From: Lacinutrix jangbogonensis
GTDB taxonomy: Bacteria; Bacteroidota; Bacteroidia; Flavobacteriales; Flavobacteriaceae
Direction of reading: 5' to 3'
DNA: 64,000 nt
Assembly (NCBI RefSeq): GCF_000797445.1
Contig: NZ_JSWF01000046.1
Span: 1 to 64,000 of the forward strand
Shown here in pieces: positions 1-16,359 of the stretch (the first letter of the stretch is position 1; the number at the start of each line of letters is the position of its first letter). The position numbers and the translations under genes are program-made. A model generated the notes under the pieces. That model saw only the letters and a list, made by a program, of their open reading frames with translations, was not told the DNA's origin and did not search any database.

Positions 1-1950
1 GCAACAATAATATCTGTGCAATATGTTGGTGCGCTATAAAGAAATGAAGCATCATCTGTAGCGTTTATTGTTACAATTTGGTCAGATGAATTGACACAAA
101 CTCCTGCAGTAGTATAAGTCACAGTATAAGTTCCTGGAGTTGATACCGAAACATCAATAACACCAGTTGAAGCATTAATAGAAAGTCCTGCGCCAGAAGT
201 AAACGTTCCACCAGCTAAACCAGTAAATGGTTGGAGTAGAATCTGTAGCATCTTGACAATACGCTGGTGCATCATAATTAAACGAAGCATCATCTGTTGC
301 GTTTATTGTTACAATTTGGTCAGATGAATTTACACAAACTCCTGCAGTAGTATACGTTACAGTATAAGTTCCTGGAGTTGATACCGAAACATCAATAACA
401 CCAGTTGAAGCATTAATAGAAAGTCCTGCGCCAGAAGTAAACGTTCCACCAGCTAAACCAGTAATGGTTGGTGTTGGATCTGTATCTGCTGAACAATAAG
501 CAGCTGTACTATAATTAAATGAAGCATCGTCTAAAGCATTAACGGTTACAGGAACACTTGAACTGTTTGGACAAGATCCAACAGTTGTATACGTTACTGT
601 ATACGCTCCTGGTGCTGAAGTTGAAACATCTATGGCTCCAGTACCTGAAGTAATAGATAATCCTCCTGGTGCAGATGAAAAAGAACCGCCTAGTAAACCA
701 GCAACGGTTGGAGTAGGATCTGTATCTGCTGAACAATAAGATCCTGCACTATAATTAAATGAAGCATCGTCTAAAGCATTAACGGTTACAGGAACATTTG
801 AACTGTTTGGACAAGCTCCAGCAGTTGTATACGTTACTGTATACGCTCCTGGTGCTGAAGTTGAAACATCAATTGCACCTGTACCAGGATTAAGAGTTAA
901 ACCTGCAGAACTTGTAAATGTTCCACCTGCTAAACCAGTAATACTTGGAGTAGGATCTGTATCATCTTGACAATAAGCAGGTGCATCATAACTATAGGAA
1001 GCATTATCTAATGCATTAATAGTGACTGAAACGTTTGAAGTGTTAGGGCAAATTCCTATTGTAGTATAAGTTACTGCATAAGTACCTGGATTCGAAGTAG
1101 AAACATCTATGCCACCTGAAGCTCCATTAAGAGTTAGTCCAGCTGTACTTGAAAAAGCACCGCCTCCTAAACCAGTAATAGTTGGAGTAGGATCTGAATC
1201 GTCAACACAAAAAGTTGAAGATCCATAATTAAATGATGCATTATCTAAAGTGTTAACAGTTACTGTAACTTGACCACATGAACCAGGTGTAGCACAACCG
1301 CCTTCTCCTCTTATAAAATAAGTAGTTGTTGAAGTTGGAGATACCGATAGGGTAGATCCTGCAGTATTTCCTACTGAAGTACCACCACAAGAACCCGTAT
1401 AAACATGCCATGCTGTTGCATCGTTTAATGTACCAGATATATTTAATGTAGTGGAACTTCCTGTGCAAATAGGATTTGATGTTGCTGCTACTGTTGGAAC
1501 AGTAGGTTCTGTGCAAGTTGGTACAGGTAATGATACTAATGTAATGTTCACAAAATGATTAGCAGCATTAGAACCACAAGCAGCACCAATATCAACCAAG
1601 GCTCTCGCATCGGTAGTAGGTGCGGTAAAAGTAACACTAGCATCATCGCCGCAGGTATTATCGTTAAAACCTAGTTGTGTTCCAGCGCTATTATAAATCG
1701 TTAAATACGTATCATCATTAGAACCACAGGTATCAACTGTATAGGTAGCGCCAACAGTTAAGCTGTTTATTGAAGCATATTCACCGCCCCAAGAGACCTG
1801 AGAAACTTCAGTGCTTACACCTACTGTTAGGGATGTTGCGTTAAAATTAACACCACCAGTTGGGGTGTTATTATTGGGACATTGTGCAAAAGATTGATAA
1901 GAAAAAAGGGTAAGCAATAAAAAAGTTAGGAAAATAGTAATTTTCTTCAT
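1..1950 (-). CDS. Giant secreted repeat protein (adhesin-like), incomplete at window edge and frameshifted
   Basis: This is the N-terminal part of a large exported surface protein whose C-terminus lies outside the window. Residues 1-23 are a clear signal peptide ending SFAQ. A domain of about 125 residues follows, with a Cys-rich TYTVDTCG...DTYLTIYN core also present in the second giant protein at 10.9-16.4 kb. Next come an Ig-like domain (about residues 150-240) and a ladder of 79-80 residue units beginning D(D/N)ASF-Y and carrying DPTP-ITGL and YTVTYTT motifs; six units are begun. An extra A in the run near 225 breaks the frame inside unit five: the sister unit at the same point has one A fewer, and past the break the unit pattern resumes and runs to position 1. 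T9SS secretion is inferred from family and neighbours, because the sorting domain is not visible. Function is unknown; adhesion is a guess. Confidence 0.8.
50..1240 (-). repeat. Tandem 237-240 bp coding repeats in the first giant protein
   Basis: Successive units can be phased on the sequence gcatc(a/g)tct, which starts at 49, 287, 524 and 764. The steps are 238, 237 and 240 bases. The normal step is 237 (79 codons); 238 reflects the extra base near 225 and 240 reflects one extra codon. Neighbouring units are very similar at DNA level, so recombination and misassembly are both plausible here. Confidence 0.85.
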
Positions 1951-2009: not shown

Positions 2010-2017
2010 TAAAGATA
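2010..2017 (-). promoter_or_regulatory. Predicted -7 promoter element for the first giant protein
   Basis: Read on the minus strand this is TATCTTTA, one mismatch from the Bacteroidota consensus TAnnTTTG. There is no good TTTG at the -33 position, as expected if an activator is needed. It lies exactly 48 nt from the palindrome at 2066-2081. Confidence 0.45.
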
Positions 2018-2060: not shown

Positions 2061-2086
2061 AAAAACAGGTATTTATACCTGTTTTT
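2061..2086. promoter_or_regulatory. Perfect 12-bp inverted repeat, candidate operator (CAGGT-N6-ACCTG)
   Basis: Arms of 12 bases around a 2-base spacer sit between two divergent genes, so a terminator role is unlikely. Its core CAGGT-N6-ACCTG (2066-2081) recurs in the divergent region upstream of the tail-collar genes (8155-8170). In both places it is 48 nt upstream of the predicted -7 element, i.e. centred near -70. This supports a shared transcription-factor site, although the AT-rich arms could also form a hairpin. Confidence 0.5.
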
Positions 2087-2193
2087 AATAAAACGAGATT
2101 ATTGTATTCTATAAGGCCTATATTATTCTATATTTAGGGCTTTCAAAAACTATGAGAATGCATTTGTATTTAAAAATATTAACACAAAACGAT

Positions 2194-2201
2194 TACATTT
2201 G
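2194..2201 (+). promoter_or_regulatory. -7 promoter element for the haloperoxidase-like gene
   Basis: TACATTTG matches the Bacteroidota TAnnTTTG consensus exactly, 20 nt before the start codon. No TTTG lies at the standard 19-21 nt spacing; the nearest is 27 nt upstream. Confidence 0.5.
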
Positions 2202-2221
2202 CCCTTTAACATTTTAATATT

Positions 2222-3541
2222 ATGTATTTAAAAATAAATCGCTTTTGTATAATAACACTTGGTTTAATATTGTTTTTAATGGGTTGCAAAGATAAAAAAA
2301 CTTTAGAACTACCTGTTTTAACTTCAAGTGCTTTGCACCAAGCTAATGTTACGTTAGAACAAGATATTGTTCACGATTTTTTCTCACCACCAGTAGCAGG
2401 GAGAATTTATTTGTATCCAAATCTCACTGCGTATGAAATATTAAGTAAGCATGCTGCAGAAATGCATTCGTTAAAAACAATAATTCCTAATTTTCCAGAA
2501 ACACCTATTTATGAAGGTTCAGAATTAAATAAATTGGCTTCAATTTATAGTTTTTATCTAGTAGCTCGTGAACTAGTATATACACCAAAGCATATTGATT
2601 TAAAAATTAGTGAATTAAAAGATTTGTATAGCAATCATAAAGAGTTTACTGCTGTTGAAAAATACTGCCAAGAATTTTCAAAAATAATGATAGCGTGGTT
2701 TAATAAAGATTTTTATAATGAAACCCGTAACATGGGAGATTATACACTTTTAAAAACACCCGGTTCTTGGAGCCCAACACCACCAGATTATATGGATGCG
2801 CTAGAACCACATTGGGACAAAATACGCCCTGTAATTCTTGATTCTTCAAACCAATTTACACCACCAGCTCCTACAACCTATAATATGACTCCTGGGAGTA
2901 AATTCCATACGGAATTACTAGAGGTTTACGATGCCGTTAAGAACAACGATGGTTCTACTATTGAAATTGCTAAATTTTGGGACTGTAATCCTATTGTTCC
3001 AAAACATAAAGGGCATATTACCTATGCCGAGAAAAAACTGACTCCTGGAGGCCACTGGATGAATATCTGTCGTGCAGCAACAGAAAATGAAAAATATAAC
3101 CTTAATAACACTGCATTGGTGTATGCCTCAATAACTGTTGGTATGTTCGATGCTTTTATTAGTTGTTGGGACGTTAAATATAAAACGAATTATATTCGTC
3201 CGGTAACTATAATACAAAATGAAATAGACCCAACTTGGATGCCAATTCTAACCACACCAAATTTCCCTGAATATACTAGCGGACATAGTGTGGTATCGCG
3301 AAGTGCATCTACAATTCTTACGTATTATTTTGGTGATAATTATGGGTTTACCGATGAAACCGAAGTGCCTTATGGAATGCCTCCAAGGACTTTTACTTCT
3401 TTTTATCACGCTTCAGATGAAGCAGCAATTAGTAGGTTTTATGGAGGTATACATTATAAACCTGCAATAGAAGTTGGAGTAGAACAAGGTAAAAGAATAG
3501 GCGCATTAGTTGTTAGTAAAATCCGAACATTAAAAAAATGA
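2222..3541 (+). CDS. Vanadium-dependent haloperoxidase/PAP2-superfamily lipoprotein
   Basis: The N-terminus carries a lipobox (LFLMGC, Cys22), so the protein is probably a membrane-anchored lipoprotein. The C-terminal half has the three PAP2/VHPO active-site blocks: K-x-RP near residues 320-327, TSGH near 351-354, and SRFYGGIHY near 403-411. These residues bind vanadate in haloperoxidases and phosphate in PAP2 phosphatases; the family acts as an oxidative halogenase or as an acid phosphatase-like enzyme, and sequence alone does not decide which. The first SGH position is Thr rather than the common Pro-Ser. The stop overlaps the start of the next gene in ATGA, indicating translational coupling with the FG-GAP protein, a pairing I recall as common in Flavobacteriaceae. 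Confidence 0.8.
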   Translation: MYLKINRFCIITLGLILFLMGCKDKKTLELPVLTSSALHQANVTLEQDIVHDFFSPPVAGRIYLYPNLTAYEILSKHAAEMHSLKTIIPNFPETPIYEGSELNKLASIYSFYLVARELVYTPKHIDLKISELKDLYSNHKEFTAVEKYCQEFSKIMIAWFNKDFYNETRNMGDYTLLKTPGSWSPTPPDYMDALEPHWDKIRPVILDSSNQFTPPAPTTYNMTPGSKFHTELLEVYDAVKNNDGSTIEIAKFWDCNPIVPKHKGHITYAEKKLTPGGHWMNICRAATENEKYNLNNTALVYASITVGMFDAFISCWDVKYKTNYIRPVTIIQNEIDPTWMPILTTPNFPEYTSGHSVVSRSASTILTYYFGDNYGFTDETEVPYGMPPRTFTSFYHASDEAAISRFYGGIHYKPAIEVGVEQGKRIGALVVSKIRTLKK

Positions 3542-6500
3542 AAAATCCCTTTCTAATTTCAATCCTTATTATATTTATATTATTTAGTTGTAAACCAGAT
3601 AAAGAAAATACTAAAGAAATAATTGAGACTTCCAAAGTACAGACAGAAAAACTATTTACATTGCTTACAGAAAAAGAAAGTGGTTTCTATTTTATAAACG
3701 AAGTAAATTCTACAAACGAAGTTAATGTACTTACTTATGAAAATTATTTTAATGGAGGCGGAGTTGCTGTAGGAGATATTAATAATGATGGGCTTCTAGA
3801 TATCTTTATGACTGGTAATTTGTTTGGTGGTCGTTTATATTTAAACAAAGGCAATATGCAGTTTGAGCAAATATCTGATAAAGCAAATGTTTATAGTAAT
3901 GGTTTTACAACCGATGCCGCTTTTGTAGATGTTAATGGCGATGGTTATCAAGATATTTATTTGTCTAAATCATTATCTTTAAGTGGAGAACAGCGTAAAA
4001 ATGTACTTTTATTAAATAATAAGGATAATACTTTTACTAATAAAGCTGAGGAATATGGAATTGCTGATAATGGGTATTCAAATCAATCTGTATTTCTCGA
4101 TTACGACAATGATGGAGATTTAGATTTATATGTTATGAATCATCGTTCTGATTTTGAAAACGCTCAAACAATCTATGACACTAAAAATGACCTAGGAAAC
4201 ATTATTCCTTCACACCAATTTTGGGATAATAACTATGCAGATAGGCTATATAGAAACAATGGCAACAATAGTTTTTCTAATGTTACTGCTACTTCTGGGA
4301 TACTAAATAATGATTTTAGTTTAAGTGCAGTAGCTTCAGATATTAACAACGATGGCTATGTAGATTTATATGTTTCAAACGATTTTGTCTCTAAAGATCA
4401 CGCCTATATTAATCAAGGTAATGGTACTTTTAAAGATGAAATTGAAACTATGTTTTCACACATTCCTAAAAGCGCAATGGGAACAGATATTGCAGATTAT
4501 AATAACGATGGGTTTCTAGACTTGATTAATGTTGATATGACACCTGAAAGTAATTATAGGCAAAAACAGCTTAAAGGTGCTAGTCCATATGATAAATATC
4601 ATCTTGCATTAGACTTTGGTTTTTATCATCAAATAAGCAGAAACATGCTTCAGTTAAATAATGGAGATGGTACTTTTAGTGAAATAGGACAATTGGCCGG
4701 TGTTGCTTATACAGATTGGAGTTGGTCTTCTTTATTTGCAGATTTAGATAATGATGGTTATCAAGATTTATTTATTTCAAATGGACACTACAAAGACATA
4801 ACAGATCTAGATTATTTAAAATACAAATCCGTTGAAGTTGTTGACAAAGCTGGAGGAATGAGCAAAGTAAATTCGCTAGACTTGATTAATTTAATGTCGA
4901 GTACTAAAATTCAAAATTACGCTTATAAAAACACAAAAGATCTTAAGTTTGAAGAGCAATCAAAAAACTGGGGATTAGATACTAAATCGCACTCGAACGG
5001 AACTGTTTATGCTGATTTAGATTTGGATGGAGATCTAGATTTAATAATAAACAATTTCAATCAAGAAGCCTTCTTATATCGTAACAACTCTAGACAAATG
5101 GATAAAGGAAACTATCTTTCTGTTGCGTTATCTGGAGGAAAAGGTAACACCTTAGGTTTTGGAGCTAAAGTTAGTATTGAAACAAATTCTGGCAAACAGA
5201 TTAGAGAATGCACACCTTATAGAGGTTTCTTATCTTCTGTAGATCCTGCGTTACATTTTGGATTAGGAAAAGAAGAAACAATTAATCAAATTGAAATTAC
5301 TTGGCCTACAGGTGAAACTCAAACTTTAAAAAATATTAAATCGAATCAGCGTATCACTGTAGATATTAAAAACGGAATAAAAAACAATTCTAAAATTAAG
5401 AAGTCGAATTCAAAACAATTCAGTATTGAAAAAGGAAACTATAATTATACTCATAAAGAAAATCCTTATATCGATTTTAAACAAGAGCCATTATTAGAGC
5501 ATATGTTATCTAACAAAGGTCCTATCCTTGAAAAAGGAGATATTAATAACGATGGTTTAATGGATGTTTATATTGGAGGTAGTGCAAATGAAGCTGGACA
5601 ACTATTGCTACAGCAATTCAATGGAACTTTTAAAATGAAAAATATTCCAGATTTTATTAACGATAAAAACCATGAAGATGGTGGTTGCGCTTTTATTGAT
5701 GTAAATAACGATGGGAATATAGATTTATATGTTTCTAGTGGAAGTAATGAATTTAATATTGGTGAAATTTATCAAGACCGCTTATATATAAATGATGGTT
5801 TAGGAAATTTAACGCGTAACCGTGATTTGCTTCCTGAAATTCATTCCTCAACTTCTGCCGTTGTGCCAATAGATTTCGATAACGATGGCGATTTAGATTT
5901 GTTTGTTGGAGGTTTTGCAAAGAAAAATGAATATCCACTTGGTCACCAAAGTTGGTTATTAAAAAATACTAATGGACAATTTACAGATGCTTCATCTTTA
6001 CTTCCAAATAATGGAGAATTAGGTATAATATCAGATGCAGCAGCATTATCAAATAATAAATTAATTGTCGTTGGAGAATGGATTAACATTAGCATTCTTA
6101 AAAAAAACAAAAATGGAATATTTGAAATTTCTAAAGAAAACGGACTAAATAATACTGGAGGTTGGTGGAACTGTATAGAAACTGCAGATTTCGATAATGA
6201 TGGTGATCTCGATTTTGTTGTTGGAAATCGTGGAGAAAACTCTATGTATAAAGCTACAGCAGAATATCCAGCATCTATTTATTGGGGAGATTTTGACAAC
6301 AATAACGATTTAGATGCCATTCCTACCTATTACAATTTTGCAAGCAAAGGGCACTACCCAAAACATGGGTTAGATCAATTATTTATGCAAATGAAAGGTG
6401 TTAGACGCACTTTTTCTGATTATGCATCCTATTCAAACGCATCTTTAGAAGAAATTATTCCAAATCGAGATAATAGCAAGAAAGTTCACATGTTTAAATC

Positions 6501-6849
6501 AGTTTATGTAGAGAATTTAGGAAACGGAAAAATGAAAGTAAGCCCACTTCCAGTAAATGCGCAGTTCTCTTATGTTCAAGGCATTCTAGCAAAAGATTTA
6601 AATGCTGATGGTAGTAAAGATATAATTCTTGTTGGAAACAATTTTGGTGTTGATATTGAAATTGGCAAAAGTGACGCCAGTAATGGACTTGTTCTTATTA
6701 ATACTAAAGAAGGTTTCAAGCCTCAAACAGTTTTAGAAAGTGGTTTCACTACAAAAGGACTTGATTCTAGAAACATTCTTGAAATAGCAGACAGCTTAAT
6801 TCTTGTTTCTAATAATAATGGACCACTGCAGTTCTTTGAGGTTAAATAA
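3538..6849 (+). CDS. FG-GAP/VCBS repeat lipoprotein with ASPIC/UnbV domain
   Basis: This is an 1103-residue exported lipoprotein (lipobox ILFSC, Cys18). Residues from about 80 onward contain many calcium-loop motifs of the form D-x-(N/D)-x-DG-x-x-D, arranged as FG-GAP/VCBS repeats predicted to fold into one or two beta-propellers. An ASPIC/UnbV (CRTAC1-like) domain occupies about 535-610 (GFGAKVSIETNSG ... ITWPTGETQTL). A second propeller series follows, with a degenerate C-terminus. No catalytic site is visible, and the family is thought to bind ligands or partners at the cell surface. The 4-nt overlap with the haloperoxidase-like gene suggests that the two products work together, perhaps as enzyme and scaffold (inference). 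Confidence 0.85.
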   Translation: MKNPFLISILIIFILFSCKPDKENTKEIIETSKVQTEKLFTLLTEKESGFYFINEVNSTNEVNVLTYENYFNGGGVAVGDINNDGLLDIFMTGNLFGGRLYLNKGNMQFEQISDKANVYSNGFTTDAAFVDVNGDGYQDIYLSKSLSLSGEQRKNVLLLNNKDNTFTNKAEEYGIADNGYSNQSVFLDYDNDGDLDLYVMNHRSDFENAQTIYDTKNDLGNIIPSHQFWDNNYADRLYRNNGNNSFSNVTATSGILNNDFSLSAVASDINNDGYVDLYVSNDFVSKDHAYINQGNGTFKDEIETMFSHIPKSAMGTDIADYNNDGFLDLINVDMTPESNYRQKQLKGASPYDKYHLALDFGFYHQISRNMLQLNNGDGTFSEIGQLAGVAYTDWSWSSLFADLDNDGYQDLFISNGHYKDITDLDYLKYKSVEVVDKAGGMSKVNSLDLINLMSSTKIQNYAYKNTKDLKFEEQSKNWGLDTKSHSNGTVYADLDLDGDLDLIINNFNQEAFLYRNNSRQMDKGNYLSVALSGGKGNTLGFGAKVSIETNSGKQIRECTPYRGFLSSVDPALHFGLGKEETINQIEITWPTGETQTLKNIKSNQRITVDIKNGIKNNSKIKKSNSKQFSIEKGNYNYTHKENPYIDFKQEPLLEHMLSNKGPILEKGDINNDGLMDVYIGGSANEAGQLLLQQFNGTFKMKNIPDFINDKNHEDGGCAFIDVNNDGNIDLYVSSGSNEFNIGEIYQDRLYINDGLGNLTRNRDLLPEIHSSTSAVVPIDFDNDGDLDLFVGGFAKKNEYPLGHQSWLLKNTNGQFTDASSLLPNNGELGIISDAAALSNNKLIVVGEWINISILKKNKNGIFEISKENGLNNTGGWWNCIETADFDNDGDLDFVVGNRGENSMYKATAEYPASIYWGDFDNNNDLDAIPTYYNFASKGHYPKHGLDQLFMQMKGVRRTFSDYASYSNASLEEIIPNRDNSKKVHMFKSVYVENLGNGKMKVSPLPVNAQFSYVQGILAKDLNADGSKDIILVGNNFGVDIEIGKSDASNGLVLINTKEGFKPQTVLESGFTTKGLDSRNILEIADSLILVSNNNGPLQFFEVK

Positions 6850-6871
6850 ACACTTTTACTACAATTAAGAT

Positions 6872-6905
6872 AAAAAAAGGAGCCGTTATCGGCTCCTTTT
6901 TACAT
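6872..6905. terminator. Bidirectional intrinsic terminator
   Basis: A hairpin AGGAGCCG-TTAT-CGGCTCCT is flanked by A-run and T-run, so it can terminate both the FG-GAP gene (+) and the tail-collar gene (-) that converge here. Confidence 0.9.
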
Positions 6906-6918
6906 ATGTTATTTAATA

Positions 6919-7482
6919 TTAGTTTCTTGAAGGATACACTCCAAATAAACAAATAATATAGTTTATACATTCCCAAGGTTGCATGTTGTTTACATGTTGG
7001 TTTCCTCCACTGTTACCTACAGTTACAGAAACACCATCAGTTGCAGCAGCTGTTCCATTTCCTGCTACTCCCCAACCACTAATACTTACATTGTCACCAC
7101 CACTAGTTCGTCCTGCCATTGGAGCTGGATAAGAATTTACTGGTGTATTTCCTGCTGGTGTAGCAGAAGTATTTAAATGTCCTGTTGCAGCATGGTTGTG
7201 CGATGGCAGTTGAGTAGTATTTAAAGTGTTAGTTTCTGTACCAGACCTTTGACCTAAACTACGCGTTGTAAGACCTGGACCAGTACCTGCATGAATTGGT
7301 GCGCGACCTCTTAAATCTGGTAGTGCAAAAGTAGTTCTACCGTCTCCGCCATAGGTTGTACCTAATATGGAAAACAATGCTGTATTTTGTGAAATAGCTA
7401 ATAACTGTCCGTTGCAAAATGCCCATGATCTTGGTGCAAAGTTACCTCCAAACGCCATAATTTCTCCTATAAATGGATTCAT
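6919..7482 (-). CDS. Phage tail-collar domain protein (microcystin-dependent protein-like), copy 2
   Basis: A 187-residue tail-collar family protein. It starts with the typical IGEIMAFGGNFAPRSWAFCNGQLL block, contains YGGDGRTTFALPDLRGR (the collar fold) at about residues 44-60, then a Gly/Thr/Ser-rich region and a C-terminal NMQPWECINYIICLFG block. Such proteins derive from tail-fibre collars but occur widely as stand-alone non-phage genes (the MdpB type). No signal peptide is visible and the export route is unknown. It lies 22 bp downstream of a paralogue on the same strand, evidently a two-gene unit. No other phage genes are near, so a prophage remnant is unlikely. Confidence 0.85.
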   Translation of the reverse strand: MNPFIGEIMAFGGNFAPRSWAFCNGQLLAISQNTALFSILGTTYGGDGRTTFALPDLRGRAPIHAGTGPGLTTRSLGQRSGTETNTLNTTQLPSHNHAATGHLNTSATPAGNTPVNSYPAPMAGRTSGGDNVSISGWGVAGNGTAAATDGVSVTVGNSGGNQHVNNMQPWECINYIICLFGVYPSRN

Positions 7483-7504
7483 AATTTTAAGTTTTTAGTT
7501 AATA

Positions 7505-8068
7505 TTAATTTCTAGAAGGGAAAACACCTTGTAAACAAATAATGTAATTTACACATTCCCAAGGTTGCATGTTATTTACAGATTGGTTTCCTCCAGAATT
7601 ACCAACAGTTACTGCAACTCCGTCATTTGCAGCGGCTGTTCCATTTGCTGCAGTTCCCCAGCCACTAATACTTACACTATCACCACCACTAGTTCGTCCT
7701 GCTATTGGAGCTGGATAAGAATTTACTGGTGTATTTCCTGCTGGTGTAGCAGAAGTCTTTAAATGTCCAGCTGCTGCATGAGAGTGAGATGGCATTTGTG
7801 TAACATTTAATATATTGGATTCTGTACCTCCTCTTTGTCCTATTCTTCGATTTGAAAGACCTGGACCAGTTCCGGCATGAATTGGAGTACGACCTCTTAA
7901 ATCGGGTAAAGCAAAAGTTGTTCTTCCATCTCCGCCGTAAGTTGTACCCAATATAGAGAATAAAGCACTGTATTGAGAAATTGATAGTAGTTGACCGTCA
8001 CATAACGCCCAAGCTCTTGGAGCAAAATTGCCTCCAAACATTGAAATTTGACCTAAAAATGGATCCAT
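7505..8068 (-). CDS. Phage tail-collar domain protein (microcystin-dependent protein-like), copy 1
   Basis: Paralogue of the following gene, same length (187 residues) and architecture: DPFLGQISMFGGNFAPRAWALCDG at the N-terminus, YGGDGRTTFALPDLRGR, then a Gly/Ser-rich segment and NMQPWECVNYIICLQG near the C-terminus. It is the promoter-proximal gene of the pair. The DNA of the two copies is nearly identical over a patch of about 90 bases in the middle but clearly more divergent on both sides. A CAGGT-N6-ACCTG palindrome upstream suggests co-regulation with the left giant adhesin. The molecular role of this family outside phages is not established. Confidence 0.85.
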   Translation of the reverse strand: MDPFLGQISMFGGNFAPRAWALCDGQLLSISQYSALFSILGTTYGGDGRTTFALPDLRGRTPIHAGTGPGLSNRRIGQRGGTESNILNVTQMPSHSHAAAGHLKTSATPAGNTPVNSYPAPIAGRTSGGDSVSISGWGTAANGTAAANDGVAVTVGNSGGNQSVNNMQPWECVNYIICLQGVFPSRN

Positions 8069-8098
8069 AATAAATAGTTTTTTTAGTTAATAGTTCTC

Positions 8099-8106
8099 CA
8101 AAATTA
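8099..8106 (-). promoter_or_regulatory. Predicted -7 promoter element for the tail-collar pair
   Basis: Read on the minus strand this is TAATTTTG, an exact TAnnTTTG match. There is no TTTG at -33. The candidate operator lies 48 nt further upstream. Confidence 0.5.
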
Positions 8107-8154
8107 ATCTAGAACTATACATTTTTTTAACGTGCATTTACGTATTTATAAAAT

Positions 8155-8170
8155 CAGGTAGAAACACCTG
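8155..8170. promoter_or_regulatory. Candidate operator palindrome CAGGT-N6-ACCTG, second copy
   Basis: Arms CAGGT and ACCTG around AGAAAC. It has the same arms and spacer length as the core of the palindrome at 2066-2081 and the same 48-nt distance to the predicted -7 element. It lies between the divergent tail-collar and kinase operons and could serve both. Confidence 0.5.
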
Positions 8171-8183
8171 TTTATTAAATTTA

Positions 8184-8216
8184 TTTGTAGCGGTGGCATT
8201 TTATTCAGTAACTTTA
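8184..8216 (+). promoter_or_regulatory. Possible promoter of the 7TM/kinase/regulator operon
   Basis: TTTG (8184-8187), a 21-nt spacer and TAACTTTA (8209-8216), one mismatch from TAnnTTTG, lie 43 nt before the first start codon of the operon. The spacing is slightly long. Confidence 0.35.
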
Positions 8217-8259: not shown

Positions 8260-8700
8260 ATGAGTGCAAGACCAATTGACATTAATGACGCTATAGCTTA
8301 TGCTACAAAATGGCAAAATGAAAACCCAAAACATGCAAAAGCGCATTTAATTCCTAATGAAGATCTTATAGCATGTCTAGAAGAAATGGGTGTTTTAGTA
8401 AGTGATGGAGAAGGAAAGTACACACTTAATGTTGCGGCAGGAGCAGGTGTTCGTGCTTATATGGGTATAAATAGACCTGAAGGAGAAGCGCCAAGCCCAC
8501 AAACTGAAAAACTTTTATTAGTAGGTACAAAATTAGATTGCGAAGGAATCCCTAGAGATCTTGTTCAAGGCGAAAAACCTTCTGGATGTGAGGATAAAGC
8601 GGTAGATAATGCCGTTAAAGCTTTAGCAGGAAGTGGTGTTTATGATTTTACAAAACCGTGCCCAAATCTTTGTGATATTAATAGTCCATTAAATCCTTAA
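8260..8700 (+). CDS. Hypothetical protein, first gene of a sensor-kinase operon
   Basis: A 146-residue soluble protein with no signal peptide or membrane segment, which I do not recognise. Its N-terminal half (DINDAIAYATKWQ ... AHLIPNEDLIACLEEMGV) looks helical. The middle has a GAGVRAYMGINRPEG stretch, and the C-terminus is Cys-rich (CEDK, CPNLC; five Cys in all) and Pro-terminated. It is followed after 8 bp by the 7TM gene, so it is probably co-transcribed with the membrane protein, kinase and response regulator. It also sits divergently from the tail-collar pair. A role as signal or cofactor of the system is only a guess. Confidence 0.6.
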   Translation: MSARPIDINDAIAYATKWQNENPKHAKAHLIPNEDLIACLEEMGVLVSDGEGKYTLNVAAGAGVRAYMGINRPEGEAPSPQTEKLLLVGTKLDCEGIPRDLVQGEKPSGCEDKAVDNAVKALAGSGVYDFTKPCPNLCDINSPLNP

Positions 8701-8708
8701 AACATTAA

Positions 8709-9371
8709 ATGGAGGTTGTATTTATTAAAGTTATTTTAAATTACCTTGAGTACATATTACTTTCTATAAATGCTATATTATATACATATAGTTATTTAAA
8801 AAAAGCGAAAAATAAAGCCATTAAATATTTTGCGATTTATTTGATTCTTATTTTTTGTGTTTTACTAGGAAGTCAATTAATAATTGATATACAGAGGGAA
8901 TTTAATTTTACAGAAAACAACTTATATTTATCTCACTTTTATTTTATTTTTCAGTTTATTTTTCTGTCACTGTTTTACAGTCAGTTATTTACTAAAAAGC
9001 AAATAAAATGTCAAAAAATTACAACTGGTTTAGTGTTTTTTATTTTAACAATACAATACGCTCTAAACCCAAGTTTGTTTGAAAAATTTAATTTATTAGA
9101 AATATTTATTACCTCTTTTCCATTAGTTATATATTCTATTTTTCATTTATATAATTCCTTAAGTAAAGCTGGAAAATTTATGTATATAAATGCTGGTGTT
9201 TTAATTTATTTAGCGACAAGTACATTAATATTTATTCTAGGCGATTACTTAATCAATGTTGATAGAGAGATAACCGCAGACGTCTGGTTTTTAAACCGGG
9301 TGTTTTATGTTGGCTATTTGGTTTTAATTTTAATAGAATGGAAAAAGAGCTTATTGAAAACGAAAGATTAA
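8709..9371 (+). CDS. Seven-helix membrane protein, probable sensor partner of the histidine kinase
   Basis: A 220-residue integral membrane protein with seven predicted helices at about residues 5-27, 38-59, 72-93, 103-124, 129-148, 157-182 and 191-210, connected by short loops; the C-terminal tail is basic (KKSLLKTKD). I recognise no named family. It overlaps the downstream kinase gene by 34 bases, so the two are translationally coupled. The kinase has only one membrane helix and no periplasmic sensor domain, which fits a split design with this protein as the input module (inference). Confidence 0.65.
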   Translation: MEVVFIKVILNYLEYILLSINAILYTYSYLKKAKNKAIKYFAIYLILIFCVLLGSQLIIDIQREFNFTENNLYLSHFYFIFQFIFLSLFYSQLFTKKQIKCQKITTGLVFFILTIQYALNPSLFEKFNLLEIFITSFPLVIYSIFHLYNSLSKAGKFMYINAGVLIYLATSTLIFILGDYLINVDREITADVWFLNRVFYVGYLVLILIEWKKSLLKTKD

Positions 9372-10141
9372 TTATTCAAGCCTTAGTTTATGGCATCATC
9401 TTTTTGGTGCTTGTAACTACGGGCTTAATTTTGTTTTTTCATTATTCAAGGCGTAAAATAGTTGCAAAAGAGTTGGAAAAAGCAGCCCTGAAATTAGAAA
9501 ATCAACAAAAAATATTAGAAACTTCTATAACTATTCAAGAGAGAGAACGTAAGCGTATTGCACAAGATTTGCATGATGCTATTAGTTCTAAATTAAATAT
9601 CGTAAGCCTATCTACTAATGTCTTATTATTAGATAAAACTATCACTAAAAAACAACATAAAACATTAGAACAAATTCTAGAAATAACAACAGGAACATTA
9701 GAAAGTTCTCGCAGAATAGCGCACAATTTATTACCTCCTATTTTAGATGAATTTGGACTTAAATCTGCATTAGAAGAATTATTTGAAGAATACATTGCTA
9801 ATACAAATATCGATATTGAAAGTAATATAGAAGAGCCTTCTGAATTATCTAAAGCGAACCAATTACATCTTTTTAGAATAATACAAGAACTCATTAATAA
9901 TTCTATAAGACATGGTGAAGCTAATGAACTAGTTATATATATGGAACAAACCAAAACCGGATTCTTATTAAGATACCAAGATAATGGTAAAGGTTTTACT
10001 TATAAAGAGGTTACAGATAAACCGGGTATTGGTTTACAGAATATAAAAAGTAGAGTCAAAATATTAAAAGGGAAATTAAAAATAGATAGCACTAAAAATA
10101 GCGGAAGCCAATTTATTATACGTTGCGATTATGAAGAATAA
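9338..10141 (+). CDS. Sensor histidine kinase of the NarL/DesK type (HisKA_3)
   Basis: A 267-residue kinase: one membrane helix at about residues 11-35, a coiled linker (36-66), a HisKA_3 dimerisation domain with phospho-acceptor His79 in RERKRIAQDLHDAI, and a HATPase_c domain with N-box (QELINNSIRH), G1 (DNGKGF) and G2 (GIGLQNIKSR). All catalytic blocks are intact. It phosphorylates a LuxR-type regulator, here the next gene, which it overlaps by 11 bases. Having almost no extracytoplasmic region, it probably takes its signal through the upstream seven-helix protein. Confidence 0.9.
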   Translation: MEKELIENERLIIQALVYGIIFLVLVTTGLILFFHYSRRKIVAKELEKAALKLENQQKILETSITIQERERKRIAQDLHDAISSKLNIVSLSTNVLLLDKTITKKQHKTLEQILEITTGTLESSRRIAHNLLPPILDEFGLKSALEELFEEYIANTNIDIESNIEEPSELSKANQLHLFRIIQELINNSIRHGEANELVIYMEQTKTGFLLRYQDNGKGFTYKEVTDKPGIGLQNIKSRVKILKGKLKIDSTKNSGSQFIIRCDYEE

Positions 10142-10811
10142 AATAAAAATTGTATTAGCAGATGACGAGCTATTGTTTAGACAAGGTCTTAAAGCGATTC
10201 TTCAAAGCCACGATTCTATAGACGTGCTTTTTGATGCAGAAAATGGAGAACATTTAATACAATTATTAAGAAATGCTAAACAACTTCCTGAAATAGTGAT
10301 TACAGATCTTAAAATGCCTGAGAAAAATGGTGTTGAAGTTACTAAGCATATAAGAAAAGAGTTTCCTAAGATTAAAGTTATTGCACTCACGAGTTATTTT
10401 AGTAAACCTTTTATTTTAAATATGATTTCTATTGGTGCTGTCGCCTATTTAGCAAAGAATAGTACTCCAGTACTTATGATAAAAACCATTGAAGAAGTGG
10501 CTGAAAAAGGGTTCTATTATGATGAACAAGTGATGCAATATGTGCATGAAAGCATTACAAACCCAAAAGACAAAAATATAAAATCAACATTTGACGCCAA
10601 TTATTTTACTAAGCGTGAAGTTGAAGTTTTAGAACTCATTTGCAAACAATACACGACTAACGATATCGGCGACAAACTTTTTATAAGTCCAAGAACAGTA
10701 GAGGGTCATCGTAATAATTTGCTTTTAAAAACGGATGCCAAAAATGTTGCTGGATTGGTAATTTATGCTCTCAAAAACAAACTTGTTTCGCTAGACAACA
10801 ATTCCTTTTAA
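10131..10811 (+). CDS. LuxR/NarL-family response regulator
   Basis: A 226-residue response regulator. The receiver domain has acidic residues Asp11/Asp12, phospho-acceptor Asp59 (ITDLKMP), Thr87 and Lys109 (YLAKNS). The C-terminal LuxR-type helix-turn-helix spans about 160-220 (FTKREVEVLELICKQ ... ISPRTVEGHRNNLL). It is the output of the kinase encoded just upstream. NarL-type regulators bind short inverted repeats as dimers, so the CAGGT-N6-ACCTG palindromes at 2066 and 8155 are reasonable candidate targets; this is inference from position only. Confidence 0.9.
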   Translation: MKNKIKIVLADDELLFRQGLKAILQSHDSIDVLFDAENGEHLIQLLRNAKQLPEIVITDLKMPEKNGVEVTKHIRKEFPKIKVIALTSYFSKPFILNMISIGAVAYLAKNSTPVLMIKTIEEVAEKGFYYDEQVMQYVHESITNPKDKNIKSTFDANYFTKREVEVLELICKQYTTNDIGDKLFISPRTVEGHRNNLLLKTDAKNVAGLVIYALKNKLVSLDNNSF

Positions 10812-10863
10812 TACAGAAGTACAGCTATAAATTTAAAGTACTGGTTACAAAATATACATTAAT

Positions 10864-10900
10864 AAAAAAAGGGCTTCTATAATTATAGAAGCCCTTTTTA
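10864..10900. terminator. Bidirectional intrinsic terminator
   Basis: A perfect 24-base palindrome (10871-10894) starting GGGCTTCTATA is flanked by A-run and T-run, between the response regulator (+) and the second giant protein (-). Confidence 0.9.
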
Positions 10901-10920
10901 AGTTTATTTAATACGTAGTT

Positions 10921-13900
10921 TTATTCTTTTAAAACACGTATTGTTTTTGTTCTAATACCATTTGCACCTTCCATTGAAACTTCAATAAAATAAGCGCCAG
11001 ATTGTAAATTAGACAAGTCTAATTGCTTAGTCGTTGCATTTGGTATTTCTGTTAATACAACTTGTCCTAACATATTTAATACGCTTACTTGAGTAATAGT
11101 AGCCTCAGATTTAAGCGTTAAAATAGTATCTACTGGATTTGGGAAATAAGTAAACCCGTAATCCTCAAAGACTGTTGTAGATAATGTTGTTTCACTTACC
11201 GTGATATTAAAAGCCCCTTCAACAAGTTGAGTGTTTCTAATAACAGCAACACCATCACTCCAAACTCTAATATAATAAGTTGCATTTGGCGTTAAACCAG
11301 TTAAGTTAATAGATTCTCCCGCATTACCAACAGAACACGCGATAAGGTCAACATCTAACTGACTACAATTTGTTGAAGAATACACGGCTACATTTGCCTG
11401 ATCTGAAGTGCCTGAAATAACTGTTGTTACCGTTGCTAATCCTGTAAGCGGTGCTTGGAAAGTGTACCAAACATCTGATTTAAAGGTAGAAGGTTCACAA
11501 CTTGTATCGTCTGATGCGCCTGTAGAATCATCTGTTGCTCCTGCTGTTGTTTCTCCTGATAAAGTGACACCTAAACTAAGCGGTGTTGCACTTGAGCATA
11601 AATCGTTATTAGGTGCACATTCATCTATTACAACACTAACACTTGAACTGTTAGAACATGATCCAGAAGTTGCATAAGTCACAGTGTATGCTCCATTTGT
11701 TGATAACGCAATATCAATTATTCCTGTTCCTGCGTTTATAGAAAGTCCTGAAGGTAATGCTGTAAACATTCCTCCTGCTAAACCTGTAATGCTTGGAGTA
11801 GGATCCGTATCTGCTGCACAATAAGTAGCCGCGTCATAATTAAAGGAAGCATCGTCTATAGCGAAGACTTCTACATTGTCATTTGCTGAACCTGAACATC
11901 CGTTTGCATCTGTAAAGTTATAGGTTATAGTATGGACTCCAACTCCAGCTGCTGCTGGATCGAAATGGTAGGTCATTCCATTGGCATCATCTGTAACACC
12001 GGGTCCTAATACACACCTCCTGTTGCTAAGCCTCCACCAACATTATTTTGAACTCCTGAATCTATACAAACATCTGCAAGCGCTGTAAATGTTACTGTTG
12101 GTAAAGCATTTTCGATAAGATTAACAGTTCCCGAAGTAGCAGAACAGCCATTATCTGTAACTGTTACGGAATATGGATTTCCTAGAGTAGTTAAAACCGA
12201 AGACGTTGAAATACCTGTATCGCCATTAGACCATAGATAAGAAGCCGTTGCTCCAGCATTTGTAGCTGTTAAAGTAACATTAGGAGTTCCTGCACAATAT
12301 TCAAGAGCTGTTCCTGAAGTAATTATCGAGGCAGCTGGTACAGCATTTTCAATAAGATTAACAGTTCCCGAAGTAGCAGAACAGCCATTATCTGTAACTG
12401 TTACGGAATATGGATTTCCTAGAGTAGTTAAAACCGAAGACGTTGAAATACCTGTATCGCCATTAGACCATAGATAAGAAGCCGTTGCTCCAGCATTTGT
12501 AGCTGTTAAAGTAACATTAGGAGTTCCTGCACAATATTCAAGAGCTGTTCCTGAAGTAATTATCGACGCAGTTGGTACAGCATTTTCAATAAGATTAACA
12601 GTTCCCGAAGTAGCAGAACAACCATTATCTGTAACTGTTACGGAATATGGATTTCCTAGAGTAGTTAAAACCGAAGACGTTGAAATACCTGTATCGCCAT
12701 TAGACCATAGATAAGAAGCCGTTGCTCCAGCATTTGTAGCTGTTAAAGTAACATTAGGAGTTCCTGCACAATATTCAAGAGCTGTTCCTGAAGTAATTAT
12801 CGACGCAGTTGGTAAAGCATTTACTGTAATAATTACTGGAAGTGCTTGTGAATCGCATGGGCTACTGTCTTCTGCAACGTATACGGTCTGTGGACTTGTT
12901 ACTGTTGTTGTCATTGGATTATAAGATGCAACCGAACCAGCTAATAAATTAGCAGTTCCACTAGCAGGATCTGCATCATAAAAATTAAATGCAGTTGTAG
13001 ATGTTCCTGTAAGTGTAATATTATCCATCGAAATATATTCTGTTGAAGCACCATTATAAACACAAATTTGAATTTGTAGTGTTGTGCCTGTAATTCCTGT
13101 TTGAGTAACTGTAGTTGAAACCCAATCACTATCATCTGGAAGATCTCCTGTTAATGTATGTGTTGCACTTCCCATACTCATCCAATCTGTAATTAGAGTT
13201 GGCATACCATCTATAATTAAGGTAACATCGGCATAATCAGCTGTTTCAAGATCACCTTGTTCTTCAATTAAAGCCGAAAAATCAACACTTGTATAAGTAG
13301 AAATATCAATACTTTCAGAAAGGAAGCACACTTCTCCATCCACATCTCGCCCTACTAATTGTCCTCCATTAACATTAAAAGAATCAGTTGTAGCAGTTAT
13401 TCCAGAAGTAGTACCAGATACACTCCATTGTCCATTTGTAGGCGCAATATTAGTTGCGCATGTTGTTGGGTCTGCACCAGAACAAACTCCTATAACACCA
13501 GCTCCATCTTGATCAAATGTTTCTGCCCAAAATTGGGTAGCACCACCAGAGGCACCAACAGGTGTTATAGTAACATCGCTTCCAGTACATCCATCAATAT
13601 TTGAAACTGTAAATGTAGCAGCTGGTAAAGCGAAGACTTCTACGTCATCAGTAGCTGAATTTGAACATCCAATTCCCGCAGCGAAAGTATATGTAAGTGT
13701 GTGAACTCCAACTCCAGCTGATGCTGGATCAAAATCGTATGTCATACCATTGCCATTATCTGTAACTCCCGGTCCTGAATAAAAAATACCACCTGTTGGA
13801 GCACCGCCACCTAATCCGGTTTGAACTCCAGAATCAAGACATAAATCTGCAAGGGCTGTAAAGGTTACCATTGGTAATGCAAATACTTCTACATCATCAT

Positions 13901-16359
13901 TTGCTGAATCTGTACAACCGGTTGTTATAGCTGTATAGGTAATAGTATGTGTTCCTACACCTGCTGCTGCAGGATCGAAACTATATGTCATTCCGTTTGC
14001 ATCGTCTGTAACTCCAGTTCCTGAATACGTACCACCTGTAGCAGTTCCACTTCCTAATCCGGTTTGAACTCCGGAATCAATACATAAATCTGCAAGCGCT
14101 GTAAAGGTTACTATTGGTAAAGCATTAACATTTACTATAATTTCACCACATAATCCTGAAGCTTCATCTACACAACCCGCTCCATCTTCTCCTCGTATAT
14201 AAAACGTTGTATTTGCTGTTAAAGCAGCTGTTGTAAATGAGTTTGTTGCCGAAGTTCCTACTTGAGTACCACCGCAAGAGCCTGTATATATATGCCATTG
14301 TATAGCATCATTTAATGCGCCTGTCCATGTTAACGTTGATGTTGAACCTGAGCATGTTGTACTTGGTGTTGCAGTTAAAACGGTTGGGATATCTGGATCT
14401 GTACATGAAGATTCACCTACTGCTGCAATTGAGAAAAAATAATCTGGTTCATGTACATCATTGCTATTGATATGAATTTCTGCTTGTCTGGTTGAAGCAA
14501 CAGCTGATGAAAAATCTATAATAAATGTAACACTACTCATACCTGCAACAGTTGCAGATGGCTGAGTGTTAACACTAAAATCTGCTGCATCAATACCACT
14601 TATGGAAACAGCATTACTTCCTAAATTTAATGTTCCAGCACCTAAGTTTTGTATTGTAAATGTTCTCGATAAACTTGCTCCAGTTCCAAAATCTGTATGA
14701 TCTCCTGAACCTGGTGACACATTACCTAAAATAATATTTGTTGCGTTTCCTTGCACATTAATTTCTGGATTAGATCCAGAGGGAAGTGTTAACACCAAAA
14801 CCTCTATTTCATCTGTATTTGCATTTGGTGGTGAAGTTAAATCACGATCATCTATGTAAGCAACTATTGCAACATCTGATGTTAAAGCATTAATGCTTAC
14901 ATCTTCAGCTTGACCTCCTGTAACGATATCTGAACCGGAACTTACTGTAAAATCATTAGAAGCTAATAAAGCTGTAAAATATTCAGAGCTTATTATTCCA
15001 CTACCACTATCTACTGCAATAATAACCTCTGTTGCAGATAATGCACTCATTGAAAATGTAGAAATACCACCACCTGTATAAAAATTAGCAATAGATCCTG
15101 GAAATGTAAAATCTGTACCACTTAATGTTGCATAAATTAAATGACCTTGATCTGTTGGTGCTTGTTCATAAGCTATGGCTACTTCTGTTTCACTTAATGC
15201 TACAATTCTAATATCATCTACATCATCTGCAACAAACTCAAAAAGCTCTGGTGTACCTATAAAAATACTAGCACTAGCATCTATGGTACCAGCTACTACA
15301 TAGCCATCCTCTGCTGGATGACCATCCCCATAAACCATAGCAAATTTAGAGTCACTTACTCTAGTGATATCGATAAGAGTAGATGCTGCTGCTGATGGGT
15401 TAATTGGGGCTCCCCATGTAATTGTACTACCGCTTACATTACCTGCAATAACCGCTGCTCCATTATAAGTGATTTGATCATCCCATGCTAAAACAACTTG
15501 AGAATCATTGATTGCAGTTAGTTCGAAACCTTCATTCCAACTTCTTTCATATTTAGTATTACTTATTTGGGCACTTGGGTTTGCAGTAATGGTTGTTCCA
15601 TCTATATCTATTACAGAATATGTTAAAGCGTTTAAATTACTTGGGTCATCAACTTCCCAAATAGCAACTGCTTTAGTAGGGCTTAATGCTTCTACTTTAA
15701 CATAATTATTAATATCAGTTGTTGCTATAATTACTTCAGTGCCAAACGTTATGTTGCTTCCACTTGTTGTTCCTATTACTGCTCTTAAATTATTTGTATT
15801 AAAATCATTATCGTCTTTATAAAAGAGTAAAACTTTATCATCGGATAATCTGGTAGACCACATTGCATTAGATTCGTATGCTCTTCCTTCTCTTTCTCCT
15901 GCGGTTGCAATTCTTCCTGAGAAGGCTGGTGCTGGAGACGAAACTAATGTAATATTAACGTGATGGTTCTGATTATTAGCAGTACATCCTCCGTTCCAAC
16001 CCAACTGAGCTTTGTACGTCCCTGAAGTTGCTGCAACGAATGTTACACTTGCATCATCTCCACAGGTTCCTGTTTCATTAAAACCGACTTGAACGTTGCT
16101 AGGGTCATAAATTGTTAAATTAGTATCGGTAGGAGACCCACAAGTATCTATAGTATATGTAGCACCTGCAACCATATTAGATATAGGAACATACTCACTT
16201 GCCCATACAACAACAGCAACCGAAGTAGATTGTCCTAAACCAAGCCCTGACGCATCATAAGTTTGAAAGAATTGAGCTCCTAGTGAACATTGTGCAAAAG
16301 ATTGATAAGAAAAAAGTGTGAATAATGCAAGAGCAAGTAAAAAAAGTAATTTTCTTCAT
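10921..16359 (-). CDS. Giant T9SS-exported repeat protein with two single-base frameshifts
   Basis: The restored product is 1812 residues. It starts with MKKIT and a signal peptide ending SFAQC. The domains are: a Cys-rich N-terminal domain like that of the left giant protein; a propeller-like region of about 350 residues; a choice-of-anchor-D/HYDIN-type domain (NIILGNVSPGSG ... DAADFSVNTQ); several PKD/Ig-like Cys units; a jelly-roll-like segment; three nearly identical 79-residue units; a DDASF unit; and a C-terminal T9SS type A sorting domain (FTYFPNPVDTILTLKS ... SGAYFIEV). Two indels interrupt it. A run of seven T (coding sense, 16339-16345) where six keep the frame separates MKKITF from the rest of the signal peptide. 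A base is missing near 12007, where sister units read CCTGAATAC. The two cancel in length, giving exactly 1813 codons. Adhesion is likely but unproven. Confidence 0.8.
12114..12824 (-). repeat. Three near-identical 237-bp tandem units
   Basis: Units begin at 12114, 12351 and 12588 (exact 237-base steps) and differ at only a few positions. They encode the 79-residue module with LEYCAGTPNV, YLWSNGDTG and NPYSVTVTDNGC motifs. The near identity indicates recent amplification. Confidence 0.95.

Follow-up and report, generated by a model that had tools for sequence, protein, structure and literature searches.

The stretch of DNA analysed here, hereafter the window, comprises 64,000 nucleotides of the Lacinutrix jangbogonensis genome (assembly GCF_000797445.1, contig NZ_JSWF01000046.1, positions 1 to 64,000) and holds two exact copies of the palindrome CAGGT-N6-ACCTG, CAGGTATTTATACCTG at 2066-2081 and CAGGTAGAAACACCTG at 8155-8170, both between divergent open reading frames (ORFs). 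An earlier note had placed each copy 48 nt from a candidate -7 promoter box, and we confirmed this distance for TATCTTTA (2010-2017, minus strand) and TAATTTTG (8099-8106, minus strand), respectively. The 8155 copy separates two minus-strand genes for phage tail collar domain proteins (protein 1 at 7505-8068 and protein 2 at 6919-7482, 187 aa each, Pfam PF07484) from a plus-strand two-component system (TCS) operon, which encodes a 146-aa protein without a Pfam family (8260-8700), a 220-aa protein whose sequence reads as multi-spanning membrane protein (8709-9371), a 267-aa HisKA_3-type histidine kinase (9338-10141; PF07730 and PF02518; H-box RIAQDLHDAIS), and a 226-aa NarL/LuxR-type response regulator (10131-10811; PF00072 and PF00196). 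The 2066 copy lies between a minus-strand ORF for an adhesin-like Ig-repeat protein (175-1950, 591 aa as read, its frame ending near the contig start) and plus-strand genes for a 439-aa PAP2-superfamily protein (2222-3541; PF01569) and an 1103-aa FG-GAP / UnbV_ASPIC repeat protein (3538-6849; PF13517 and PF07593). We consider it probable that these palindromes are operator dyads of the neighbouring NarL/LuxR-type regulator, acting on the collar genes, on its own operon, and on unlinked promoters.

Taken as a word alone, the palindrome is a weak finding, and it is the spacing that departs from chance. At up to two mismatches, the window holds 17 matches compared with 11.7 +/- 4.0 in shuffled sequence, a count reached by 10 of 100 shuffles, so the loose motif is not enriched. 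Across the host genome (46 contigs, 4.02 Mb), the exact motif occurs seven times and its reversed control not at all, whereas with up to one mismatch there are 46 matches versus 36 for the control, and the excess is almost gone. The genome-wide comparison of coding and intergenic copies suggested in the earlier note gave a divided answer: four of the seven exact copies are intergenic, but three fall within ORFs, which makes the exact palindrome a poor predictor, and on this ground we rejected a regulon defined by it. The general form of the dyad is CASGTA-N4-TACSTG with A/T tracts on either side, CAGGT-N6-ACCTG being one variant. The first observation is real and its regulatory interpretation mostly holds, but the motif is this degenerate dyad, accompanied at the collar promoter by a second one.

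In a set of 60 genomes, the 146-aa gene is carried by the window's own genome and by nine others of its genus, with one weak match elsewhere. All ten genus genomes have it divergent from the collar side, with the site in the shared intergenic region (in G003 and G008, a 119-aa ORF precedes the collar gene), and the collar-side gap from the dyad to TAnnTTTR is exactly 48 nt in all ten, own genome included. On the opposite side the gap is 38 nt in nine genomes and 37 in one, and in the window it leads to the candidate -7 box of the TCS operon, TAACTTTA (8209-8216, plus strand, 38 nt from the dyad). A search with the regulator in named genomes returned 34 loci, of which 14 at 41% identity or less were set aside and the 20 at 68-85% were analysed; these 20 span Lacinutrix, Bizionia, Oceanihabitans, Psychroserpens, Dokdonia and others. 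The order of collar gene or genes, then divergently the small gene, membrane protein, kinase and regulator, is kept in 18 of the 20, with collar genes missing from L190 and L194 and the small gene missing from L194 as well. The dyad is present in all 20 loci, including these two.

Merging the genus genomes with the 20 regulator loci, and counting once the five loci taken to be common to both, gave a set of 25, not all of them independent (L187 and L188 are identical across the compared stretch). The dyad could be placed in every one. NAnnTTTG falls at +48 in 19, with any other offset represented once at most; the stricter TAnnTTTR stands at +48 in 13, and TAnnTTTA occurs 37-39 nt from the dyad toward the TCS operon in 23. 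The fixed distance between palindrome and -7 element that the earlier note described extends well beyond the window, and the same collar dyad also faces the TCS operon. From the flavobacterial -7 register of -12 to -5, as given in PMC9723704, we computed dyad centres of about -68.5 for the collar promoter and about -58.5 for the TCS operon promoter.

Between this distal dyad and the collar -7 box lies a proximal, degenerate dyad (TACGTAAATGCACGTT on the collar strand, 8129-8144), 26 bp from the former and 22 nt from the latter, with its centre at about -42.5. Its fixed positions recur through the set: G at position 4, T at position 5 and C at position 13 are each kept in 24 of the 25 loci. Pairwise identity averages 0.757 across the distal dyad, 0.553 across the proximal one and 0.673 across the -7 box. 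The 22-nt spacer, at 0.351 compared with 0.314 for shuffled sequence, has almost saturated; a spacer of fixed length that has nearly lost its similarity is good evidence of a constraint on spacing. Bacteroidota sigma-A promoters carry a TTTG element at -33. None of the 25 collar-type sequences has TTTG 17-22 nt before the -7 place (TTG occurs in two), and by reading there is none in the adhesin spacer, so the absence of a good -33 element claimed earlier for both promoters holds and fits an activator-dependent promoter.

We scanned further genomes with two models. The sequence-only model R1, built from the ten collar-side sites and free of any -7 spacing, was run on 17 genomes and scored 150 first-look candidates per genome (150 of 8138 in the own genome). 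Among the scored places of its genome, the 2066 dyad, which lay outside the training set, ranked second (30.4 bits, E 1.5e-6). Of 22 further R1 places, 20 were intergenic (12 of 12 in the own genome) and two were inside ORFs (counting ORFs of at least 70 aa), a proportion that AT-rich flanks would favour anyway. The histogram of gaps to TAnnTTTR covers 63 sites, namely 62 among the R1 matches listed plus the adhesin site; all matches of G006, some of G001, G002, G004, G008, G009 and G010, not always weaker ones, and at the order level those of G037-G042 except one G039 site were left out. Against a mean of 0.53 per position, the histogram peaks at gaps of 22 and 23 nt (ten sites each), and a gap of 48 is shown by the adhesin site only. 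From the off-peak rate, the chance of TAnnTTTR at exactly 48 nt from the 2066 site is approximately 0.3% per side. In seven of the ten gap-23 sites the arms read TACGTA, and a related regulator may be responsible for these.

The tandem model R2, comprising both dyads and the -7 box, was run on 13 genus genomes, in which the ten collar-side promoters score 54-66 bits. Of ten non-collar R2 promoters measured, eight have the proximal dyad with a relaxed -7 box (NAnnTTTR), the distance from GTR to the box being exactly 35 nt in all eight (gap 22) and the distance between dyads 25-27 bp in the seven that have both. In the other two, L160 and the window match at 2054, we found no proximal dyad by the GTR pattern. 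This regularity is partly by construction, because R2 contains the dyad and box spacing; the R1 histogram is unaffected. Collar sites aside, the top R2 scores are 18.0-40 bits where the genome has the collar/TCS module (ten genus genomes) and 16.3-17.6 bits where it does not (three), all ten outranking all three (1 in 286 by rank alone), with the caveat that the three module-less genomes are smaller, two of them incomplete, and that regulator absence was tested in two (G002 and G006). Taken together with the collar loci, the predicted regulon has an unusually rigid promoter geometry.

The layout recurs at promoters unlinked to the module, and the genes behind them are varied. In the own genome, an R2 match precedes a group of genes (L173:310-4657, G000:C14) for a precursor with repeated DCCWIVLATTGCST-type segments, an APH/LxmK-like protein, a HopA1-domain protein and a LanC-like protein, which we read as a class V-like lanthipeptide cluster. 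A 94-95-aa protein family (M[KA]YTFNM.NTL.E...) stands behind R2 promoters in four genomes (L164, L165, L168, and L170; the L164 member had no Pfam or NCBIfam match), and the genes behind the remaining matches include a tyrosinase operon (L172), a 102-aa peptide (L166), and a 144-aa member of the R_equi_Vir family in Pfam (L167). DUF805b RNA (RF02914) leaders lie directly 3′ of dyad promoters at L161:1639-1679, L160:1630-1665, and L155:1627-1666, and another DUF805b RNA is found at L046:2244-2279 (minus strand), 5′ of the collar paralogue of G000:C27. Seven loci searched against Rfam at the gathering threshold gave no match; in seven others, searched with an E-value threshold, DUF805b scored above the gathering cutoff four times and under it once, which links this orphan RNA motif to this promoter type. 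The earlier note had envisaged a surface-protein regulon; a regulon acting in trans is supported, but judging by these predicted targets, which range from a lanthipeptide-like cluster to a tyrosinase operon and small proteins, it is not confined to surface proteins.

Outside the genus, the arrangement recurs in G130, a genome of a second genus, with the exact N48 layout (gap 48) before two collar genes and, divergently from these, genes for a small protein, a membrane protein and a kinase; the regulator lies beyond the stretch. A one-mismatch N48 site in the same genome precedes a precursor-like peptide adjoining a TOMM leader-binding protein, and on these two places R2 gives 39.6 and 20.0 bits. 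Of seven places inspected in G130 and G080, L316 (the precursor-like peptide) and L317 show gap 48. L311 (22.4 bits, before a protein read as a lipase) and L318 (16.3 bits, before a protein read as LodA-like) each have one dyad at gap 22, L310 has two dyads and no recognised -7 box, and the other two show neither arrangement. At L304 (G130:C9), an N48-type site with one mismatch is followed by a 102-aa precursor-like peptide with CCCTCTPACCCT near its end, beside a TOMM leader-binding/SagC-family-like protein.

Focusing on the protein that would read the dyads, the regulator at 10131-10811 has a receiver domain (PF00072, E 7e-21) and a GerE/LuxR helix-turn-helix (HTH) domain (PF00196, E 5.1e-14), with a phospho-acceptor region, VITDLKMP, recognised by eye. 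The combination of a receiver and a LuxR HTH with an adjoining HisKA_3 kinase carrying HATPase_c is that of a NarL/FixJ two-component pair. An orthologue 78-83% identical was found in G001, G003, G004, G005, G007 and G008, all of which have the 146-aa gene, and at E <= 1e-25 none was found in G002 or G006, both of which lack that gene. The neighbouring regulator, which the earlier note had suggested for footprinting, is the likely reader because of this co-occurrence, its linkage to the site, and the persistence of the dyad by the TCS operon where collar genes are missing. Rather unlikely, in our view, is that another NarL/LuxR-family regulator or other factor reads the dyads and that the neighbouring TCS is merely a target. 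The genome abounds in related candidates (48 at first look), TACGTA-N4-TACGTA is a frequent kind of site at gap 23, and G002 has a CASGTA-type site with gap 22 without this regulator's orthologue at E <= 1e-25, which suggests that related regulators may share a code. Set against these points are the dyad beside this TCS in 25 of 25 loci, even without collar genes, and the higher non-collar R2 scores of the genomes with the module (18.0-40 versus 16.3-17.6 bits). Very improbable is that the palindromes, with A-tract, stem and T-tract, act as RNA in the form of intrinsic-terminator or attenuator hairpins. Stems flanked by A/T tracts do resemble bidirectional terminators, three C25 sites lie ~33-115 nt past stop codons of tandem genes, and C31:266 is terminator-like; at the collar locus, however, none of five arm pairs changed on both sides among ten sequences, and 70% of cells were paired compared with 74.1% in shuffles, counts on which we rejected a hairpin there. 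The distal dyad also lies upstream of both -7 boxes and outside both predicted transcripts, at a conserved spacing to each box. With pairing not conserved and the element upstream of both boxes, the site between the collar and TCS genes is best described as a DNA site.

Several observations weigh against the operator reading as a whole. One is the G002 site just described; in addition, 8 of the 25 loci have another base in place of the opening T of the -7 box, three read TAGYTTAG there, and the collar-less Dokdonia locus L190 has no such -7 box. The genome-wide search for motif, spacing and box that the earlier note had called for, widened to the family, yielded three exact occurrences of CASGTA-N4-TACSTG-N48-TAnnTTTR in 149 genomes, including the adhesin site and the G130 collar site, but at up to one mismatch it rose barely above its reversed control (20 versus 13), with 13 versus 13 outside G000, G130 and G080 (the N22 form gave 19 versus 9). 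On R2, the comparison genomes G031, G013 and G023 reach 15.8-18.8 bits, which puts the weaker G130/G080 matches at background. Finally, no proximal dyad is present at the adhesin promoter.

What the 2066 dyad controls is a narrower question, and here we lean slightly toward control of the adhesin, alone or with the opposite operon. On the adhesin strand there are three candidate -7 boxes, at gaps of 22 (one mismatch), 48 and 54 nt. It is quite possible, if short of probable, that the dyad instead serves the plus-strand PAP2/FG-GAP operon, for which TATATTTA (2129-2136, plus strand) is an alternative -7 box candidate 47 nt away and toward which R2 scores 28.4 bits compared with 18.6 toward the adhesin (24.2 versus 15.5 in a separate run). 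That gap is neither 48 nor 38, whereas the adhesin side has exactly 48 and a mismatch-free N48 pattern, and the dyad may serve both sides, as we propose at the collar locus. It seems unlikely to us that only the site between the collar and TCS genes is functional and that the 2066 copy is a relic or mere coincidence, despite the missing proximal dyad, the three boxes that make a chance match easier, and the failure to find an orthologous adhesin/PAP2 arrangement for footprinting among 31 and 37 genomes; the R1 score came from a model trained without this site, and A/T tracts flank the dyad as at other sites. Adhesin co-regulation with the collar genes, as first suggested, is plausible from the 48-nt gap and the second rank on R1, although it lacks a footprint and R2 prefers the other direction.

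Over most of the PAP2 protein's length, the 31 genomes hold relatives only in G013 and G018 (45% identical), close behind another gene. Adhesin homologues match mainly through the repeats, and among the R1 matches listed none lies near those on C30, C36 and C45, a point against adhesin control. Among 18 proteins encoded beyond collar genes, only one in G003, two ORFs past the collar pair, matches the adhesin, again via repeats, and we do not claim that the adhesin is a displaced third gene of the collar operon. In window positions 1-293 the adhesin repeat changes frame: where the 591-aa ORF stops, at 175, it is already reading out of frame, and the repeat goes on in another frame. This change may be a true frame break or an assembly-end effect.

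In the mechanism we propose, a dimer of the regulator would occupy the strong distal dyad at the collar promoter, and the weaker proximal dyad would also be occupied, probably cooperatively, reaching the place of the missing -33 element. The bound regulator would then recruit sigma-A RNA polymerase to the TAnnTTTG box and drive the collar genes, acting by activation rather than repression. From about -58.5, the same distal dyad would serve autoregulation of the operon for the 146-aa protein, membrane protein, kinase and regulator, and in trans the regulator would use the same layout at unlinked promoters such as those of the lanthipeptide cluster and small proteins. By way of the 2066 dyad, one or both of the adhesin and the PAP2/FG-GAP genes are probably under its control.

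Compared with known systems, the half-site here is TACSTG and not the ComA element, CCGCAA. The lux box, ACCTGTAGGATCGTACAGGT, has the words ACCTG and CAGGT in common with the dyad, but its arms are in the opposite orientation, so it is a different operator. VraR and LiaR also work with histidine kinases, and VraR is the nearest solved relative of the regulator by sequence (5hev, E 1.1e-25); both differ in host phylum and operon. Collar promoters share the TAnnTTTG -7 box and its register at -12 to -5 with flavobacterial sigma-A promoters as described in PMC9723704, and differ in lacking TTTG at the -33 spacing in all 25 collar-type sequences. For ComA of Bacillus subtilis, a member of the NarL/LuxR family, PMC4797271 reports that inverted repeats bind best at n = 4 and that two kinds of site serve class/type I and II activation. 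The likeness lies in hexameric half-sites arranged as an inverted repeat with a 4-nt spacer (here CASGTA-N4-TACSTG, with arms degenerate in single loci) and in a canonical site accompanied by a more degenerate second one for type I/II activation; the 6-4-6 dyad and its two positions fit this precedent. The second ComA site is a direct repeat with a 5-nt spacer, whereas the proximal element here reads as a degenerate inverted repeat (GTR-N4-YRC in the non-collar promoters), and the -7 box is of the Bacteroidota type.

The leading matches of a literature search contained no description of this motif or operon. A fuller picture, which we hold tentatively and find somewhat doubtful in its entirety, is an undescribed regulon of marine Flavobacteriaceae in which a NarL-type regulator, through a rigid tandem-dyad promoter, would place collar proteins, an adhesin and cargo of antagonism type under joint control, the cargo being a class V-like lanthipeptide, an azole peptide, tyrosinase and perhaps a LodA-like oxidase, with DUF805b leaders on some transcripts. 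To our knowledge, few operator sites of such regulators are known in this phylum, for which these results would supply a concrete operator code and a candidate regulator, tying tail-collar-domain proteins of unknown function and an orphan RNA to a signalling system and peptide natural-product genes. Should this picture prove correct, the promoters of silent peptide clusters in these marine bacteria could serve to find the clusters and perhaps to induce them.

A second class of site, TACGTA-N4-TACGTA with a -7 box at gap 23, occurs at L131:3390-3425 and 3587-3626 and in L225, L236, L240 and L242. Downstream of the L131 site, no same-strand ORF of 70 aa appears for several hundred bases, and sites of this type may possibly serve small RNA or small-protein genes under a related regulator. 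In G000:C31, a lipoprotein-like gene of ~600 aa is duplicated in tandem (L120:7221-9225 and 10161-12246); the copies are near-identical over the N-terminal half and the region upstream, and both carry a dyad with TAAGTTTG at gap 23. Within the window gene at 12006-16175, GACGTTGAAATACCTG recurs at 12202, 12439 and 12676 with a 237-bp periodicity, and these copies are probably protein repeats rather than operators.

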